DNA from: Geothrix sp. | Lineage (GTDB): Bacteria > Acidobacteriota > Holophagae > Holophagales > Holophagaceae | Direction of reading: 5' to 3' | NCBI GenBank assembly: GCA_030681515.1 | Contig: JAUXSE010000053.1 | Location: 62,001 to 126,000 of the forward strand | DNA: 64,000 nucleotides | Program-made: the position numbers and the translations under genes | The notes under the pieces: model-generated | The model's input: only the letters and a program-made list of their open reading frames with translations | Database searches by the model: none | What the model was told of the DNA's origin: nothing | Shown here: piece by piece, positions 8,958 to 22,674 of the stretch | How positions within the stretch are numbered: position 1 is the first letter of the stretch | Layout of the letters: each line of letters starts with the position of its first letter

Positions 8958-9260
8958 ATGGACATGCGCTTCCTGATGAAACAGGCCCAGCAGATGCAGG
9001 CGAAGCTGGCGGAGACCCAGGCCAACCTGCGGGTCGAGGGCACCGCCGGGGGCGAGCTGGTGAAGATCACCCTCAACGGATCGAAGGAACTGGTGGGCAT
9101 CTCCATCGCCAGGGACGCCATGGATCCCGAGGATCCCTCCATGCTCGAGGATCTGCTGGTGGCGGCCTTCCGCGATGCCGCCGCCAAGGCCGACGCGGCC
9201 ATGAAGCAGCAGATGGGCGGCATGGGCGCCGGCCTCAACCTGCCGGGCCTCGGGCTTTGA
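8958..9260 (+). CDS. ybaB: YbaB/EbfC nucleoid-associated protein
   Basis: A 100-residue DNA-binding protein that typically dimerises and is encoded next to recR. The N-terminal helix LMKQAQQMQAKLAETQ, the core GTAGGELVKITLNG and the acidic DPEDPSMLEDLLVAAF segment are the family hallmarks. A Gly/Met-rich tail ends it. The ybaB-recR pairing is conserved across bacteria. Confidence 0.95.
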   Translation: MDMRFLMKQAQQMQAKLAETQANLRVEGTAGGELVKITLNGSKELVGISIARDAMDPEDPSMLEDLLVAAFRDAAAKADAAMKQQMGGMGAGLNLPGLGL

Positions 9261-14938: not shown

Positions 14939-15328
14939 TCAGCGCATGGCCGCCTGGGCCGCCTGGGCCAGGAAGGCGCTGCGGCTCAGCCCGTGGGCCT
15001 TGGCATAGCGATCCACGCGGTCGAGGATCCCCTTGGGCATGGTGATGTTGGCACGCACGGTGGGCTCGTCGTAGGGAACATCCACCAGGAAAGCCACCGC
15101 ATTCCTGTTCATGGCGTCCGACTCCAGCGCGGATTCGAGCTTCATGGGATCGGGAATCGCCTCCCCATCCTCCAGCAGCCCCTGGATATGGAAAGGCAAG
15201 GCTTCCCGGGCCATGTCCTTGGCCTCGTCCAGACTGCCGCCCGCCGTGAGACACCCCTGGAAATCCGGAAAGGTGACGGTGTAATCGCTGTGGGAATCCT
15301 TGTGGATGAAGGCAAGGTAGTGGCGCAT
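14939..15328 (-). CDS. hicB: HicB-family antitoxin
   Basis: A 129-residue antitoxin with two parts. The N-terminal HicB fold (FIHKDSHSDYTVTFPDFQGC, then EAKDMAREALPFHI) neutralises HicA, and a C-terminal ribbon-helix-helix-like segment (NITMPKGILDRVDRYAKAHG) should bind DNA for autoregulation. It lies nine bases after hicA in the usual toxin-first order. It is convergent with the ATP-grasp gene. Confidence 0.95.
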   Translation of the reverse strand: MRHYLAFIHKDSHSDYTVTFPDFQGCLTAGGSLDEAKDMAREALPFHIQGLLEDGEAIPDPMKLESALESDAMNRNAVAFLVDVPYDEPTVRANITMPKGILDRVDRYAKAHGLSRSAFLAQAAQAAMR

Positions 15329-15337
15329 GACATTCTC

Positions 15338-15520
15338 CTAGCTGAGCCCGGCCTGTTTGAGGATCGCCCTTTCAGTGCCCTGCTTCAGATCCTTCTTTGG
15401 ATGGGGCACCGTGACTCGTCCGGGTTTCTCGGGATGCTTGAACTGGTGGTGGGAGCCCTTTACCGCCACCCGCACCCAGCCGTCGCCTTCCAGGATCTTG
15501 ATGAGCGTCCGGCTATCCAC
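15338..15520 (-). CDS. hicA: HicA mRNA interferase toxin
   Basis: A 60-residue double-stranded-RNA-binding-like toxin that cleaves mRNA. It has the catalytic His context VAVKGSHHQFKHPEKPGR and the tail VPHPKKDLKQGT. The GTG at 15520 was chosen because it gives the family N-terminus (VDSRTLIKILEGDGW) and standard length. An ATG at 15538 and a TTG at 15565 are in-frame alternatives. A promoter with -10 at 15530-15525 would start transcripts almost at this GTG, implying a leaderless or nearly leaderless message. It lies about 50 bases after res on the same strand. Confidence 0.9.
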   Translation of the reverse strand: MDSRTLIKILEGDGWVRVAVKGSHHQFKHPEKPGRVTVPHPKKDLKQGTERAILKQAGLS

Positions 15521-15524
15521 CCCC

Positions 15525-15555
15525 CTAATAGTGCGCATTCCGTGCGCATCGTCAA
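15525..15555 (-). promoter_or_regulatory. Putative hicAB promoter with direct-repeat operator in the spacer
   Basis: On the minus strand TTGACG (15555-15550) and TATTAG (15530-15525) are separated by 19 bases. That spacer is exactly two copies of an eight-base word (GTGCGCAT on the plus strand, 15531-15538 and 15542-15549) three bases apart. A repressor such as the HicB ribbon-helix-helix could bind there and block the polymerase. The box matches and the long spacer make this a moderate-strength prediction. Confidence 0.55.
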
Positions 15556-15572
15556 GGCAAAACAAGGGAATA

Positions 15573-18500
15573 TCAGATGGTTGAAATCGCCCCGTGCAGA
15601 TCCCTCAACAATGTCTGGACATCCCGACACACCAGGAAGTCCCACCGTCCCATGTCGCCCCAACGGGTCACAGCCCGCACCCAACGACGGGCCGCCTCAT
15701 GCTTGGCCCGGTCCACATCGTCCTCCTCTCCTTTGATCTCCAGGATCAGGATCCGGCCCGGCGCGATCTGCACCAGGAAATCCGGCTGGTAGCTGTGGCC
15801 GAGACCGTCGTACTCGTAGGGGATGTTGAACTCCAGCCGCTCATTGCGGGCATAGCAGCGGATGAGCCCCTGGCCGGCCGCCTGCTCCAGAGCGAAGGCC
15901 GCGCTCTGCTCCCACTGGATCGTATCCATGGCGGCCTGGTTGATGTGGCTGGCCACGGTGGGCTTGCAGGGCTTCGTGGTCTTGAAGTCCACCCGGGCCG
16001 TGCTGCCCTTGGGCTGGTAGCGGTTCAGGATGGGCACCAGAGCCTGCTCGCCCTGGGCCTCATCCGGCTCGATGGCAGTAAGGAAGCGGCTCGTGAGGCG
16101 CTCCATGTACCGCTCCAGGCCCAGCTCTGCGGGGTGGCAACCATTCCACTGGACCTTGGTGACGGTGTAGGCCTTCACCATCCACAGCACCTGCGGGAAA
16201 AGCTGCTGACGGCCCTGCGTTCGGGCACTGAGGCGACGGTCCCCCTTCCCTTCCAGCAACCCTGACACGATGCGGCGGGCCAACTCGAACTCCAGGGTCT
16301 GGAGGTGCGTGCTGCCGTAGTACTGCTCGCGGTTCTGCTCCTGGGCCGGGAACTGCCCCAGGCCACTGGGATTTCCTTCTGCGTAACCCACCTGGGGCGC
16401 CACGAATACCGCCGTGGGTTCCTGGAGGGGCTCCAGGGCCAGGGATTCCATGGCCGCCACCTCCGCCTTGATGACGTTCCGCTTCAGCTCGAAGGCATAG
16501 CCCTCCACGTTGGGGAACTCGATTTCGAAGGCCTGCCGCTCCGGCAGGGCCTTCACATGGTTCTTGGGCTTGTCCTCGGGGGCCGGTTTGTTGACTGGCC
16601 TGCCTTTGAAGGGGATCACCGAGAAGGGCACGCCATAGACATCCACATATTCCTCGTGGAGCTTCCAGCGACCCTGCGCATCACGGTAGGGCGTGTAGTC
16701 CAGGCGCCGCAGGCCCCGACCCACCACCTGCTCGCAGAGCAGCTGGCTGCCGAAGGCCCGGAGGCCCAGGATGTGAGTCACGGAGTTGGCGTCCCAGCCT
16801 TCGCTGAGCATCTGCACGCTTACCACGCAGCGAACCTGCTCGCCGGGCTCGCCCTTCACGCCCACGGTGGAGACGATCTTCCGCAGTTCCTCGGCGGCGT
16901 CCTTGCGCGACCCGGTGGCACTCTCCGCTTCGGCCAGCAGCTTGGAGTCGATGCGCAGGGTGGCGCGGCGCTGCTCCGTGTTGGCGAAGGCTTCATTCAA
17001 GGCGCTGGGGCCATAGGCCACGGTGCGCTTCTTCTTCCCGCGCTTTGGGGCCTCGTCGTCGTCATCTTCAACTTCGACTTCCTTCAGCACGGTCTCACCG
17101 CTGATGCGCTCGAAGAAGAGCCGCGCGATATCCGTGTTATCGCAAACGACGATGAGCACGGGCGGCACACATTCCTGGCCCGGCGCGGCGGCTTCCATCT
17201 GCTGGAAGCGTTCCAGCCACTGATCCGCCAGCGTGCGCAGGGCGCCTTCGGCTTCGCGCCAGACCACCTCCGGCTTGGGTTTGCCGCCGGATAGCTTGTC
17301 GCCCGCCCGCAGGTTCTCCATGATCTCGCGCCACAGGCGGAAGTACTTGGGATCCGGCCGTCCCGTCGTATCCGCCACCGGCAGGCGCGGAATCTTGGTG
17401 ATGCCGCTCTCGATGGCGTCCACCAGCCCGAAGTCCGAAATCAGCCACGGAAAGGGCGACCCCTCGGGATGCCCCGAGCCCTTGAGGTAGAAGGGCGTAG
17501 CGGACAGGTCCACACAAAAGCGCACACCCACGGACCGGTTCAGACGATCCAGTCCCTGTACCCAAAGGGTCGCCTCTTCAAGGTCGGCCTTTTCTTCGGC
17601 GCTGAGGTGTTCACCTTCCGCCACGGGCGCGGGACGATAAGCATGGTGAGCCTCGTCGTTCATCACGAGGATGGGCCCCCGGCCATAGAGTTCTCCCAGG
17701 AAGCGGCGGGCGAAGGTATCGGGATCCTCCTCGCCCTTGTCCACCACCCGGAAGGTGGCCCCTGCCTCCGCGTGGGGACTCTCCAGGCCCATCTGGTGCC
17801 AGTTGTCCACCTTCACCCGGCCCTTGCGCAGGTCGGGCAGCAGCGCCGCGGGCACGAGATCAAAGGCCTGATAGTAGTTCTTGGCATAGTCCGGCCGCAG
17901 CACCTGCAGCCGCTCCTTGATGGTGAGGTTCGGGCAGGCCACGAAGACCGCACCGGGGAAGCGCTCGCTGTTCGGCATGCGGGCCCGGTTGCAAAGGGTC
18001 CAGGCGATGAGCATGGCCATCACCACAGTCTTGCCACTGCCCGTGGCCATCTTGCAGCCGTAGCGGCGGAGGGCCTGCAGTCCGGCCTCCGAGGGGAAAT
18101 CCAACAGGGCCGGGGGCACCGTGAGCCCCTCCGTGAAGCGGGGTGCCTCGCCTCGCAGCAGGGCCTGGAAGTCCTCCGGACGCAGCCACTCGCCCTTGAT
18201 GGGGCGGCCCTGCGCATCCTGGGGATGGCGTACCCGCTGGTTCTGCTCCAGCACCTCGGTGAGGTAGATGATCGTTTCCACTGCCTCCAGCTGGCAGAAG
18301 AAGAGGCGGCGGGCCCGATCTTCCCGGCCCCAATGCAGCAGCAGCTGGCGCGTGACCGCGGTGACATGGGGATAGCCCTCGGCCCGCCAGTCCCGCACAT
18401 TGGCCCGCAGGAGGTTCACCAGGGGCAGATCGTCCTCGTCCTCTTCCATGAAGAGGCTGCGCTGCTTGCTGCCCGTGAGGCTGCCCTGATGCCAGTAGCG

Positions 18501-18638
18501 GCTGGTCCTGCGGCCGCTCACTTCCACATGGTGGTGGCTGTCGCGGTCGTATTGCCAGTGCCGGTCCGGCTCCTCGTAGGGGCTGCAGAGGATCGGCTCG
18601 GCGACAGGCTGGATGGGGAGCGGCGCCAGCTCGGTCAT
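15573..18638 (-). CDS. res: Type III-like restriction enzyme Res subunit (BPTD_3080-type)
   Basis: A 1021-residue DNA translocase and nuclease. Walker A MATGSGKT lies at about 197-204 and the DEAH box NDEAHH near 327-332. The superfamily 2 C-terminal helicase region includes QMLSEGWDANSVTHI and QVVGRGLRR. A PD-(D/E)xK nuclease core follows at the C-terminus (PDFLVQI at 952, E967-x-K969 in ILEIKG). The fold and order fit type III Res subunits. It overlaps mod by ATGA (18635-18638), so both are translated together, and hicAB follows on the same strand. Confidence 0.92.
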   Translation of the reverse strand: MTELAPLPIQPVAEPILCSPYEEPDRHWQYDRDSHHHVEVSGRRTSRYWHQGSLTGSKQRSLFMEEDEDDLPLVNLLRANVRDWRAEGYPHVTAVTRQLLLHWGREDRARRLFFCQLEAVETIIYLTEVLEQNQRVRHPQDAQGRPIKGEWLRPEDFQALLRGEAPRFTEGLTVPPALLDFPSEAGLQALRRYGCKMATGSGKTVVMAMLIAWTLCNRARMPNSERFPGAVFVACPNLTIKERLQVLRPDYAKNYYQAFDLVPAALLPDLRKGRVKVDNWHQMGLESPHAEAGATFRVVDKGEEDPDTFARRFLGELYGRGPILVMNDEAHHAYRPAPVAEGEHLSAEEKADLEEATLWVQGLDRLNRSVGVRFCVDLSATPFYLKGSGHPEGSPFPWLISDFGLVDAIESGITKIPRLPVADTTGRPDPKYFRLWREIMENLRAGDKLSGGKPKPEVVWREAEGALRTLADQWLERFQQMEAAAPGQECVPPVLIVVCDNTDIARLFFERISGETVLKEVEVEDDDDEAPKRGKKKRTVAYGPSALNEAFANTEQRRATLRIDSKLLAEAESATGSRKDAAEELRKIVSTVGVKGEPGEQVRCVVSVQMLSEGWDANSVTHILGLRAFGSQLLCEQVVGRGLRRLDYTPYRDAQGRWKLHEEYVDVYGVPFSVIPFKGRPVNKPAPEDKPKNHVKALPERQAFEIEFPNVEGYAFELKRNVIKAEVAAMESLALEPLQEPTAVFVAPQVGYAEGNPSGLGQFPAQEQNREQYYGSTHLQTLEFELARRIVSGLLEGKGDRRLSARTQGRQQLFPQVLWMVKAYTVTKVQWNGCHPAELGLERYMERLTSRFLTAIEPDEAQGEQALVPILNRYQPKGSTARVDFKTTKPCKPTVASHINQAAMDTIQWEQSAAFALEQAAGQGLIRCYARNERLEFNIPYEYDGLGHSYQPDFLVQIAPGRILILEIKGEEDDVDRAKHEAARRWVRAVTRWGDMGRWDFLVCRDVQTLLRDLHGAISTI

Positions 18639-21600
18639 GCCTGATCCAGCCGATGCGTGGTCATCACTTCGTTGCCTCGGGGATCAATCACCTTCACGGC
18701 GCAGCGCGCGTGCTTGCCGGCCGCGAAGGGCAGGCTTTCAGTGCCCGCGAAGGCCTTGAAGCGATCGGCATCCGCGCTCTTGAGGGCCTTGGCCAGCTTC
18801 TCCCAGGCGGTCTTGTCGGGGAAGAAGGCCTGGGTGATGCAGAAGGCGCGCCCGTCGTAATCCTGATCCAGGAACCAGGCTGCCACCTTGTCGGCGCCGG
18901 TGGGAACGAGGCTGTGGTCCACGGGGTTGTAGATGTCCACGCCCTCCATATGGACGCGGAATTCGCCGTGCTTCAGGCGCTCCAGGCGCGTGCGCGGCAG
19001 GCCCATGGCCGTGAAGAGCTGGGCGCCGGGACCATCCTTCAGCAGGCCCGCCATGGTGGCATCGGGGCGGATGAGCAGCAGGTGGGTGCGCACCTGGCCG
19101 CCATCCTCGGCGTGCTGCTGGATGGCGCCCTGGGCCACGGCGTCGAAGCCGAAGCCCGCGAAGACCAGCTCCTCGAAGCCACGCTGATAGGCCTGGCGCA
19201 GGGCCTGACCCACCTGGAACTCCGACACATTGCCGATGCGGGGACCGATGCTCAGGGCCACGCGGCGGGCGGGCTCGCCCCATTCACCCTGGCCATGCAG
19301 TACGGGGCTGCCGGTCAGGGGTTCCAGTCGCGAGAAGGCCTGGCGCTTGTTGTCGAGGAAATCCACGCCCTGCTGTCGCAGCCAGCCCAGCACCTGCTCC
19401 TGGAAGGCCTCGGCGTTCCGCGGTGCATTGGAGGGATCGAAGGCGGGCAGATCACCCTCGATGCCTTCGATGGGCGAATCCTCATCAAGGCTTTCCAGCG
19501 CGGGCAGCACGGATTCCACCGTGAAAGGGCCGCTCACCCGCGTGATGCTGCGCACCACCTTGGGCTGGTCCACCAGCTCCTCCTGGGCCGCCCGCGCCGC
19601 AATGCAGGCATTCACTTCATCCATCTTGGCCCGCCAGGCGGCACGGTAGGCCGTAACGGCCTCGCGCAGGGGTTTGGGCCAATCCTCGTCGGTGTCGAAG
19701 GGCACTTCCCAGGCATACCAGCCGCCGAAGTCGAGATCGACGGTGGCACGCTTGCGGGCCACCGCATCGCGCTCCCGGCCGTCCGGCGGCAGCAGCCAAC
19801 GGCGGCGATCCGCGTCCGTGATGGCCCGCTGGCCCCCGGCCTTCGCCTTGGCCGTCAACTTGGCGCGCAGCTGGTCCCGCAGGGCCGGAGTGACTGCGGT
19901 GAGCGCGGCGTTGCAGGCCGCCAGCGCCGCCTCCAGCAGGGGCTCGTGCTTGGCGAAGATGGGATCGAGATCCGCGTTCTGGGCGATGCTGCGCAGGGTC
20001 ACATGGGGCACGGTCTTGCAGTCCAGGGTGCGGGGCTCCCCGCTGGTGGGCTCCTTCAGCCAGGTACCCTCGGGATGGCGCTGCCGGTCTTCGTCATTCA
20101 ATTCGCGCAGCGCATAGTAGTCGAACTTCGCCGTCATGAGCCGCTGTCGCGCCAGGGACAGCGCCACGCGGCTGGTGTCGCAGGTGATCCAACGCCGCCC
20201 CCACTGCTCTGCGACATAGGCCGTCGTGCCCGATCCGCAGGTGGGATCCAGGACGAGATCGCCGGGATCGGTGGTCATGAGGAGGCAGCGTTCGATAACC
20301 TTTTCCGAGGTCTGAACCACATAGCGTTTTTCAGAAGCACCCTGGGTGTCTTGCCAAATATTCGTTAACTCGAAGACTGGATAGTCTTCTTGAAAAAAGA
20401 CATAGGCAGGGGCATCTGAAGGTGACGACACGCGGCCTTCACGAACCAATCGAGCCATGCCACCTGTATTTGTCTTCCAGCTTTTACTCCCGGTTGGGGC
20501 GAACCTCCTTCCATTCAGCTCAAACTCGAATAGACATGATTCTGTTCGCCCCGCTGAGACTAGATCCGTTAACCGGAATGGCTTTGAACCATCAGGTAGA
20601 GGCACACTGCCGCCCTTCTCGCTGTCTGTCATGCGCCTTCGTTCACCACTTGAGAGTTCAATCCATGTGAACTGCGAATCCCCGCCAATTTCCCGATCAG
20701 AAAAGACCTTTCGAAATTTCAGCTTTTTGAGATCCTTCGCAAACCAGATGAGTGAGTCGTTAGTGGACGCAAGAAAAGTAGCCCGAAGCGGAATTTTTGT
20801 GCGGAAAGAAATCTGGGTTACGAAATTATCGGCGCCGAATACTTCCTCCATCACCATCCGCACCCGGTGCAGGTTCTCGTCGCTGATCTGCACGAAGATG
20901 CTGCCGCTGTCGGCCAGCAGTTCTCTGGCGAGCATCAGGCGATCGCGCAGGTAGGCCAGGTAGGAGTGGACGCCCAGGGTCCAGGTGTCGCGGTAGGCCT
21001 TGATCATCTCGGGTTCGCGGGTGAGGTCGCTGTCCCGGTCCTTCACATCCCGCTTGCCTACCTCGGACTGGAAATTGCCGCCGAACTTGATGCCGTAGGG
21101 TGGATCCAGGTAGATCATCTGCACCTGCCCGGCCAGGTTCTCGCGCCGCGCCAACGAGGCCATCACCTGCAGGGAATCTCCCAGCACCATGCGGTTGGCC
21201 CACTCGATGGGGTACTTGTAGAACTGCAGTTCCTTGGCGGGATCCAGATCGGGATCGGCGAAGAGGCTGCGGGGCGAGTCCTGGCGCCGCACAGCGTTGA
21301 GGATCGCCTGGGTGCTCACCCGCTCGTGGATGTGCAGCGCCACGGGATCCACCTCGAAACCGGCCTTCTCCCGCTTGCCCGCCCACTCGATCCAGGGCTC
21401 GTGGACGCTGAGGAGGGTCTGCAACTCGGCGCCTTCCTCCGCCGTGAGGGCCCGCTGGGTAGCCGCAGCTACCAACTCGGCGGCACGATCCGCGCGACCC
21501 GAAGGATCGAAGCGCAACTCCGGCGGCCGGTGGGGGTTGTAGGCATAGGCCAGACGCGGAGGTTCCGCCGCACGGCCTTCCGCCGCCAGCCCCGCAGGCG

Positions 21601-21781
21601 GGTTGTTGAGCCGCTTGGCGCGGTGCAGGTAGTTGGCGCTCTCCGACTCCGATAGTTCCAATTCCGGCGCGACCGCTGTGGGCACTTTGGAACCAGTGTC
21701 CTTCCCGGTGCCTTTGGGCCGGCCCCGCTTGGGTTTGGGGGCATCCTCCGCCCGGAGCTCGAACTCAGCGTCGCCGTTCAC
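18635..21781 (-). CDS. mod: Type III-like DNA methyltransferase Mod subunit
   Basis: From GTG 21781 the product is 1048 residues. Motif IV YLDPPYG (about 224) precedes motif I LDPTCGSGTT (about 512), the beta-class order of adenine or cytosine-N4 methyltransferases. Residues about 316-487 between them, the target recognition region, are encoded by markedly AT-richer DNA (about 20320-20835). A C-terminal extension of nearly 500 residues exceeds ordinary Mod proteins. GTG 21781 was chosen because GGAG lies five bases upstream; ATG 21823 lacks a ribosome site and would place the palindromic operator inside the coding region. Confidence 0.9.
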   Translation of the reverse strand: MNGDAEFELRAEDAPKPKRGRPKGTGKDTGSKVPTAVAPELELSESESANYLHRAKRLNNPPAGLAAEGRAAEPPRLAYAYNPHRPPELRFDPSGRADRAAELVAAATQRALTAEEGAELQTLLSVHEPWIEWAGKREKAGFEVDPVALHIHERVSTQAILNAVRRQDSPRSLFADPDLDPAKELQFYKYPIEWANRMVLGDSLQVMASLARRENLAGQVQMIYLDPPYGIKFGGNFQSEVGKRDVKDRDSDLTREPEMIKAYRDTWTLGVHSYLAYLRDRLMLARELLADSGSIFVQISDENLHRVRMVMEEVFGADNFVTQISFRTKIPLRATFLASTNDSLIWFAKDLKKLKFRKVFSDREIGGDSQFTWIELSSGERRRMTDSEKGGSVPLPDGSKPFRLTDLVSAGRTESCLFEFELNGRRFAPTGSKSWKTNTGGMARLVREGRVSSPSDAPAYVFFQEDYPVFELTNIWQDTQGASEKRYVVQTSEKVIERCLLMTTDPGDLVLDPTCGSGTTAYVAEQWGRRWITCDTSRVALSLARQRLMTAKFDYYALRELNDEDRQRHPEGTWLKEPTSGEPRTLDCKTVPHVTLRSIAQNADLDPIFAKHEPLLEAALAACNAALTAVTPALRDQLRAKLTAKAKAGGQRAITDADRRRWLLPPDGRERDAVARKRATVDLDFGGWYAWEVPFDTDEDWPKPLREAVTAYRAAWRAKMDEVNACIAARAAQEELVDQPKVVRSITRVSGPFTVESVLPALESLDEDSPIEGIEGDLPAFDPSNAPRNAEAFQEQVLGWLRQQGVDFLDNKRQAFSRLEPLTGSPVLHGQGEWGEPARRVALSIGPRIGNVSEFQVGQALRQAYQRGFEELVFAGFGFDAVAQGAIQQHAEDGGQVRTHLLLIRPDATMAGLLKDGPGAQLFTAMGLPRTRLERLKHGEFRVHMEGVDIYNPVDHSLVPTGADKVAAWFLDQDYDGRAFCITQAFFPDKTAWEKLAKALKSADADRFKAFAGTESLPFAAGKHARCAVKVIDPRGNEVMTTHRLDQA

Positions 21782-21789
21782 ACCGACTC

Positions 21790-21810
21790 CAATACAAACT
21801 ATTTGTGTTG
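21790..21810. promoter_or_regulatory. Operator palindrome upstream of mod
   Basis: CAATACAA-ACTAT-TTGTGTTG: eight-base arms, five-base spacer, one mismatch. It abuts the mod Shine-Dalgarno and ends eight bases before the GTG start. A near-identical copy precedes the divergent XRE gene at 21931-21951. Confidence 0.7.
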
Positions 21811-21930
21811 CATCAGTTTGCATCCCGAGAGGCCGCTACTCAAAGAGAAAAAACTTGGGTTAACCTCTTGGCATGGCGCAGTGCCGGCTGTCTCGCTCCT
21901 GGATCTGGAGCGAACGGGCCGAAGAAATAT

Positions 21931-21951
21931 CAACACAAATTGATTGTGTTG
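21931..21951. promoter_or_regulatory. Operator palindrome upstream of the XRE regulator
   Basis: CAACACAA-ATTGA-TTGTGTTG: perfect eight-base arms with a five-base spacer, ending 13 bases before the regulator ATG. With the copy at 21790-21810 it brackets the divergent promoter region (21811-21930), which is relatively AT-rich. Confidence 0.75.
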
Positions 21952-21964
21952 CAAGGCAACTGCC

Positions 21965-22411
21965 ATGAAGGGCCACGAGCGCCCGCCCCGGCAGCGATCC
22001 CCTCGCCATCCCAAGTCTCTAGGTCAGCGGATCTGGGTGGCAAGGGAAAGGCTGGGCCTTACGCAGCGTGCCCTTGGCGAGGAAGTGGGCGTGGGTCAGG
22101 CGGCAGTCTCCGCCTGGGAGAAGGGAACATCCCAGCCCCGGGAAAGCTTGTGGCCCCTGCTCTGCAAGACCCTCGCGCAGACCCGCCGTGCGCTGGAAAC
22201 CGGAATCGGCTTTCCGGTCAAGGAGACGGAACCCCGGGTTTCGGAGGGCCGCGCGCCCAGTGTGGTGCTGCCCAGAATTCCCAAGGGTGCGGAAACGCTC
22301 CTGCTTTCGGAGAAGGGCTTGGCCCAGGAATCCATGACCGCCGCGCAGGCCGCGAAGGCCCTGCGGGAAGCCGTGAAATCGGGCCGTCCAGTGTGGATCG
22401 TGGTGGGTTGA
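21965..22411 (+). CDS. XRE-family regulator, probable controller of the restriction-modification operon
   Basis: A 148-residue protein with a basic N-terminus and a Cro/CI helix-turn-helix at about residues 20-60 (GLTQRALGEEVGVGQAAVSAW). The C-terminal half, including KGAETLLLSEKGLAQESM and the ending PVWIVVG, is unassigned. It is divergent from mod and has a perfect palindrome immediately upstream matched by one in front of mod, the arrangement of a restriction-modification controller (C) protein. Activation or repression cannot be told from sequence. The ribosome site is weak. Confidence 0.82.
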   Translation: MKGHERPPRQRSPRHPKSLGQRIWVARERLGLTQRALGEEVGVGQAAVSAWEKGTSQPRESLWPLLCKTLAQTRRALETGIGFPVKETEPRVSEGRAPSVVLPRIPKGAETLLLSEKGLAQESMTAAQAAKALREAVKSGRPVWIVVG

Positions 22412-22461: not shown

Positions 22462-22674
22462 ATGTCCCCTCACGAACTGATCTTCCAGGTGGAGGAAGCC
22501 CCCGAGGGTGGCTTCACGGCCCAGGCCCTGGGCGAAAGCATCTACACCCAGGCCGAGACCTACGATGCCCTGAAGGATGCCGTGCGCGAGGCGGTGGCGT
22601 GCTACTTCGACGAGGGCCAAGGACCGAAAATGATCCGGCTGCACCTGGTGCGGGACGAACTCCTGGCTATATGA
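22462..22674 (+). CDS. HicB-like antitoxin (orphan)
   Basis: A 70-residue protein of the short HicB-like type: LIFQVEEAPEGGFTAQALGESIYTQ, then TYDALKDAVREAVACYF and an IRLHLVRDELLAI tail. It lacks a DNA-binding extension. GAAGGAATTCC before the ATG gives a good ribosome site. Its stop overlaps the ATG of a hicA remnant by ATGA, the usual coupling for this antitoxin-first subtype. The toxin partner is truncated, so this is an orphan antitoxin. Confidence 0.85.
   Translation: MSPHELIFQVEEAPEGGFTAQALGESIYTQAETYDALKDAVREAVACYFDEGQGPKMIRLHLVRDELLAI

Follow-up and report, generated by a model that had tools for sequence, protein, structure and literature searches.

Two palindromes lie in the intergenic region between a type III-like mod–res pair and a divergent XRE-family regulator gene in the window, i.e. 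the whole 64,000-nt stretch of DNA analysed here, which comes from the soil bacterium Geothrix. Data from this locus and its relatives make it rather probable that both palindromes are operators of a dedicated dimeric XRE repressor, which would limit mod–res expression and, by a transcriptional roadblock, its own synthesis. The sequences themselves show the palindromes, their conservation, their pairing, their exact position and their class-wise change together with the regulator; binding by XRE, repression, the start sites, the roadblock and the timing of control are what we infer.

Both restriction–modification (R-M) genes are on the minus strand. The res gene (15573–18638) encodes a 1021-aa type III-like restriction helicase-nuclease of the BPTD_3080 family (NCBIfam NF046055, E 4e-277; Pfam ResIII), and mod (18635–21781) encodes a type III N6-adenine methyltransferase of 1048 aa when read from GTG 21781 (Pfam N6_N4_Mtase, 1e-30; PADLOC MTase_III, 2e-164). 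Mod with its N6_N4 methylase domain is thus next to Res with its ResIII helicase, as in a type III system. The mod stop overlaps the res start by 4 nt (ATGA) in the same direction, and the two genes are probably one operon. On the plus strand, 21965–22411 encodes the 148-aa XRE-family regulator, which consists of a P22-C2-like helix–turn–helix (HTH) (Pfam HTH_3, 1e-9) and a C-terminal region. By sequence (PDB) and fold matches the HTH is closest to the P22 C2 repressor; C.BclI and C.AhdI were also matched by profile and fold, weakly and in the HTH only. The predicted structure is good for the HTH only (mean pLDDT 82.7, poor at 87–97). The C-terminal region is conserved across 23 homologues (LP...VWxV), and family and fold searches found no relative of it. 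A HicB/HicA toxin–antitoxin pair lies directly downstream of res (14939–15565, minus strand; HicA_toxin 1e-24, HicB_lk_antitox 3e-32), and a 70-aa frame right after the XRE gene (22462–22674, plus strand) looks HicB-like by eye, with no family match.

The mod-side palindrome is CAATACAAACTATTTGTGTTG (21790–21810, centre 21800) and the regulator-side palindrome is CAACACAAATTGATTGTGTTG (21931–21951, centre 21941). An earlier note on this DNA had described them as twin operators near the starts of both genes, and both were recovered exactly, 21 bp each, with GTG 21781 8 nt past the first and ATG 21965 13 nt past the second. When up to three mismatches were allowed, the genome-wide motif search that the note had called for returned only these two sites in 3.2 Mb, and a reversed control pattern gave 6–7 matches; the same threshold in the window returned only the two palindromes, where shuffles gave a mean of 0.06 and none of 100 reached four strand hits. 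Both palindromes are kept in all four Geothrix loci in which mod–res is divergent from the XRE gene, namely the window, G010:C38 (L033), G010:C65 (L024/L078) and G007:C2 (L039), of which the two G010 loci may stem from two strains because G010 is a 72% complete MAG. Across 47 Geothrix genomes, all operator matches with 0–1 mismatches sit in these four loci, and the remaining matches have two mismatches and are not clean palindromes. The spacing of the two operators is 141 bp in the window and 175, 137 and 137 bp in the other loci, with no helical phasing. DNA looping with fixed phasing was therefore rejected, and looping of any kind between the two operators seems unlikely at unphased spacings of 137–175 bp.

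The mod start proposed in the earlier note, GTG 21781 rather than ATG 21823, is supported because orthologues align both the start codon and the GGAG preceding it. Two more distant orthologues (G. oryzisoli and G010:C65) have an ATG exactly at the position of GTG 21781, 8 nt past the palindrome, and G010:C38 likewise has a GTG there; the mod/XRE loci do not share ATG 21823, which is upstream of the palindrome. The GGAG (21787–21790, minus strand), which is the probable mod ribosome-binding site 5 nt before the GTG, is conserved in the four loci, and the operator centre is always 20 nt from the mod start codon. A possible mod -10, CAAACT (21815–21820, minus strand), is conserved 4–5 nt before the palindrome in the four-locus alignment and might, on slender grounds, put the mod start site within the operator. 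No -35 box could be recognised and the mod promoter could not be placed firmly; a scan found no sigma-70 consensus promoter.

Among named organisms, G. oryzisoli SG189 has the closest relative of the locus, with a Mod 72% identical to that of the window, and a Mod from a Geothrix MAG is 82% identical. Next to mod homologues outside Geothrix, no XRE of this family was found nearby (some contigs were short). The XRE as a general part of the mod/res family was thus rejected, and the switch was probably added within the genus Geothrix. Searching 60 related genomes with the XRE protein gave about twenty more Geothrix members, and the family was split into group A, the 17 loci studied below, and group B, with seven loci. 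In six of the latter (L061, L062, L070, L072, L073 and L076) the gene is divergent from genes of ~850–1050 aa, and the products of these neighbours were read as kinase-plus-TPR proteins (Ser/Thr kinase); group B loci have no leader, and the -10 box spacing is absent in six of the seven.

Group A loci have a common upstream design, i.e. a -10 box, a leader ATG, a hairpin at +31 and a palindrome at +69. The -10-like box of the window, TAACCT (21861–21866, plus strand), is 6 nt before the leader ATG, and TANNNT ends 6–7 nt before this codon in 16 of the 17 loci, which is the position expected of a -10 box in a leaderless transcript; in the 15 loci for which all offsets 0–39 were profiled, no other offset has the box. 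The XRE transcript is thus predicted to be leaderless, with its start at ATG 21873. Leaderless genes seem to be used in Geothrix, since among 157 long reading frames taken from Geothrix loci L060–L079 and the window, TANNNT was enriched at offset 6 before the first start codon (8 frames, vs ~0.7 elsewhere).

A 31-codon leader reading frame (21873–21968, plus strand) stands at the predicted 5′ end of the transcript, and its TGA overlaps the XRE ATG as ATGA. The overlap, as ATGA or GTGA, is found in 15 of the 17 loci, the exceptions being L069, where the leader is fused in frame to XRE, and L077, where the frame stops early; the L069 fusion, from position 9136 onwards, yields a 185-aa product. 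The frame was rejected as a conserved peptide, as its substitutions are even over codon positions (65, 55 and 54), unlike the XRE gene, which shows a third-position excess. The first 15 loci align gap-free for 52 nt from the leader ATG. Within this stretch, the hairpin CGCTCC-N7-GGAGCG (21894–21912, plus strand; +22 to +40, centre +31) has compensatory changes across the 15 loci, its pairing being kept through two-sided changes. A covariance model of the leader gave one good-scoring site in the genome of the window, and genus-wide its confident matches were XRE loci only, with no other above chance level. Two loci found by the model and absent from its building (L091 and L095) served as an out-of-sample test: each precedes an XRE of this family, and both carry the TANNNT box, the ATGA-type overlap and the +69 palindrome. 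Outside Geothrix the model gave two weak matches in one genome, not beside such an XRE, and Rfam matches were at chance level only, so that no known RNA family was found for the leader. In predicted folds of window 21873–21967 and of L033, the 5′ AUGGC pairs with GCCAU at the XRE start codon and could mask it; this pairing was not seen in other classes.

The earlier note had missed that the second palindrome is inside the probable regulator transcript, 69 nt from the predicted start. In nearly all 17 loci the symmetry centre of a palindrome is at exactly +69 from the leader ATG, a constant position relative to the predicted XRE start, and the sequences differ. Mean symmetry over the 17 loci was 0.69 at +69, vs 0.26 (sd 0.057) at other positions. 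Because loci within one class are related, the 17 loci were counted as about nine independent classes, six of which score at least 7 of 10 symmetric pairs at +69 (background 0.0072 per site; binomial P about 1e-11); elsewhere in -300 to +120, at best two classes reach at least 7 of 10. In two classes, L069 and L077, the symmetry at +69 is weak.

The +69 palindrome is CAACACAAA/TTTGTGTTG in the mod loci, AAAATCAAA/TTTGATTTT in L064, L075 and L091, ATATCGG/CCGATAT in L065, L071 and L095, ATACTCAT/ATGAGTAT in L063 and L066, GACAACT/AGTTGTC in L060 and ATTACA/TGTAAT in L067. The recognition helix of the regulator varies with these operator classes: QAA[VI]SAW is found with CAACACAAA, KATVSAW with AAAATCAAA, Q[NS]xx[IV]S[DE]W with ATATCGG and QK[TS]LSRW with ATACTCAT. 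Regulator specificity and operator would thus have changed together several times, which offers a natural set for working out XRE recognition rules.

Using the +69 half-site of each locus as the query for its own upstream region, we found a partner site in 11 of 11 loci with a divergent R-M or nuclease gene (corrected p ≤0.022 each), compared with two of six loci with other neighbours (hypergeometric 0.006, with orthologues that are not independent). This copy of the class sequence on the divergent side is at a variable distance. The 11 neighbours are type III mod genes of two kinds (five loci), HARE/Mrr (two), Mrr PDC-S02 (two), an N6 methylase of type IIG kind (one) and a PDC-S26 nuclease (one).

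In the mechanism that we propose, an XRE dimer would bind 21790–21810 and repress the mod–res operon. The operator on this side is in contact with the ribosome-binding site of mod, and the promoter or start site of that gene probably falls at least partly within it; both overlapping genes, mod and res, are downstream of this one operator, so that both would be lowered together. On the other side, XRE bound at 21931–21951, centred 69 nt past the predicted leaderless start at ATG 21873, would block elongating RNA polymerase and thus lower the amount of XRE; if the start is as predicted, the operator is downstream of it, and hence its effect in the leader could only be a roadblock or one at the RNA level. 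The edge of the operator is at +58, which would halt polymerase near +40, where the hairpin ends, and the ATGA overlap would couple leader translation to the regulator.

A wider proposal, which we make tentatively and consider somewhat short of probable, is that the design is a modular cassette which was combined with restriction systems unrelated to one another, in each case with an operator class of its own that recurs towards the divergent gene, and that the +69 site represents an undescribed distance-dependent roadblock or hairpin-assisted control. The parts of such a cassette would be the predicted leaderless start, the covarying hairpin at +31, the operator at +69, the coupled leader frame and the XRE repressor, and its partners two kinds of type III mod, a type IIG-like methylase, Mrr nucleases and a PDC-S26 nuclease. 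If one genus-wide controller has an operator class for every defence gene, a single kind of switch would be seen to tame several restriction types. The position of the operator, exactly +69 in loci that have diverged in sequence, makes the roadblock mechanism directly testable.

The earlier note had read the region as a controller-protein switch. Its paired operators of a dedicated XRE regulator are supported; the delay of restriction is not, since mod and res overlap and would be controlled together, and under joint control restriction would not obviously lag behind modification. A classical C-protein switch, in which XRE activates first and represses later so that restriction appears after methylation, is on the whole unlikely, even with an XRE-type HTH, HTH-only matches to C.BclI and C.AhdI and an R-M system alongside. 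Gene order, protein size and operator layout all differ: mod and res are overlapping and codirectional, with no separate control of res visible; the regulator is divergent, where a C gene would precede res and be co-transcribed with it; at 148 aa, with its extra C-terminal region, it is not a small one-domain protein of about 80–100 aa; and the palindromes are isolated, 137–175 bp apart and one of them at +69 in the predicted transcript, rather than a tandem C-box upstream of the regulator's own promoter. A site downstream of the predicted XRE start is what one would expect of a repressor or roadblock rather than of a classical activator.

It is also improbable that the palindromes are RNA hairpins or attenuators in both 5′ leaders instead of protein operators. 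The near palindrome is within the predicted transcript, as is the covarying hairpin at +31, and in predicted folds, where the palindromes could form weak RNA hairpins, both stems are formed in most loci; however, the stems are short and AT-rich, the class sequence has a second copy towards the divergent gene at a distance that varies, and it differs with the HTH recognition helix, all as one would expect if they were DNA operators. We give equally little weight to XRE binding both sites, activating mod–res (e.g. under phage attack) and repressing itself. XRE proteins are capable of both roles, and a mod activator is conceivable because the mod promoter is without a clear -35, but the mod-side operator, 8 nt from the mod start codon, is too close for the usual activator position. 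That another protein uses the palindromes is very improbable: the sites are confined to loci encoding this XRE and the +69 palindrome switches class with the XRE paralogue.

The dimeric XRE repressor preferred here can be compared with several known regulators. P22 C2 and lambda-type repressors act as dimers on palindromes at divergent promoters. They provide the closest solved HTH by sequence and fold; they are phage immunity repressors, and the C-terminal region of XRE has no found relation to them. Like C.PvuII, C.AhdI, C.Esp1396I and C.BclI, the regulator has an XRE-type HTH dedicated to an R-M system and symmetric sites. Classical C genes typically precede res and are co-transcribed with it, and their products occupy a pair of neighbouring dimer sites at the promoter of the C gene itself (PMC6237814). 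As res co-transcription and adjacent dimer sites are absent here, we do not file the XRE as a C protein, and it may play a similar part.

In the type III system EcoP15I, mod and res are transcribed simultaneously and res translation is delayed (PMC12707154). The same review names controllers for type II systems and one type I system, presents type III control as post-transcriptional and describes no dedicated transcriptional controller of a type III system. The type I case is the hsd locus of Mycoplasma gallisepticum, whose C-type regulator, according to the passage of PMC12707154 that cites it, is thought to repress the whole operon; it is likewise a controller outside type II systems, and as presented in that passage it is upstream in the same direction, unlike the Geothrix XRE. 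Type I R-M islands have a dedicated repressor, RptR, also tied to restriction systems and with palindromic operators near the promoter (PMC12255303). Encoded by the first gene of the island and not divergent from it, RptR has a mass of 9 kDa and a different fold and binds TAGCTA direct repeats (PMC12255303); it is an example of a dedicated R-M repressor that is not built on the fold seen here.

C.Kpn2I autoregulates by a roadblock, through a binding site in the regulator's own transcribed region (Klimuk 2018, PMC6237814). Both here and in Kpn2I, the regulator gene diverges from that of the methyltransferase, which C.Kpn2I limits (PMC6237814) and the Geothrix XRE would limit; the candidate counterpart of the C.Kpn2I roadblock site is the +69 palindrome in the predicted XRE transcript. 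Kpn2I is a type II system with one C-box for both functions and a separate res promoter (PMC6237814), whereas the Geothrix locus combines a larger regulator with a type III-like mod–res pair and has two palindromes apart from each other and a hairpin in the leader frame of a transcript predicted to be leaderless.
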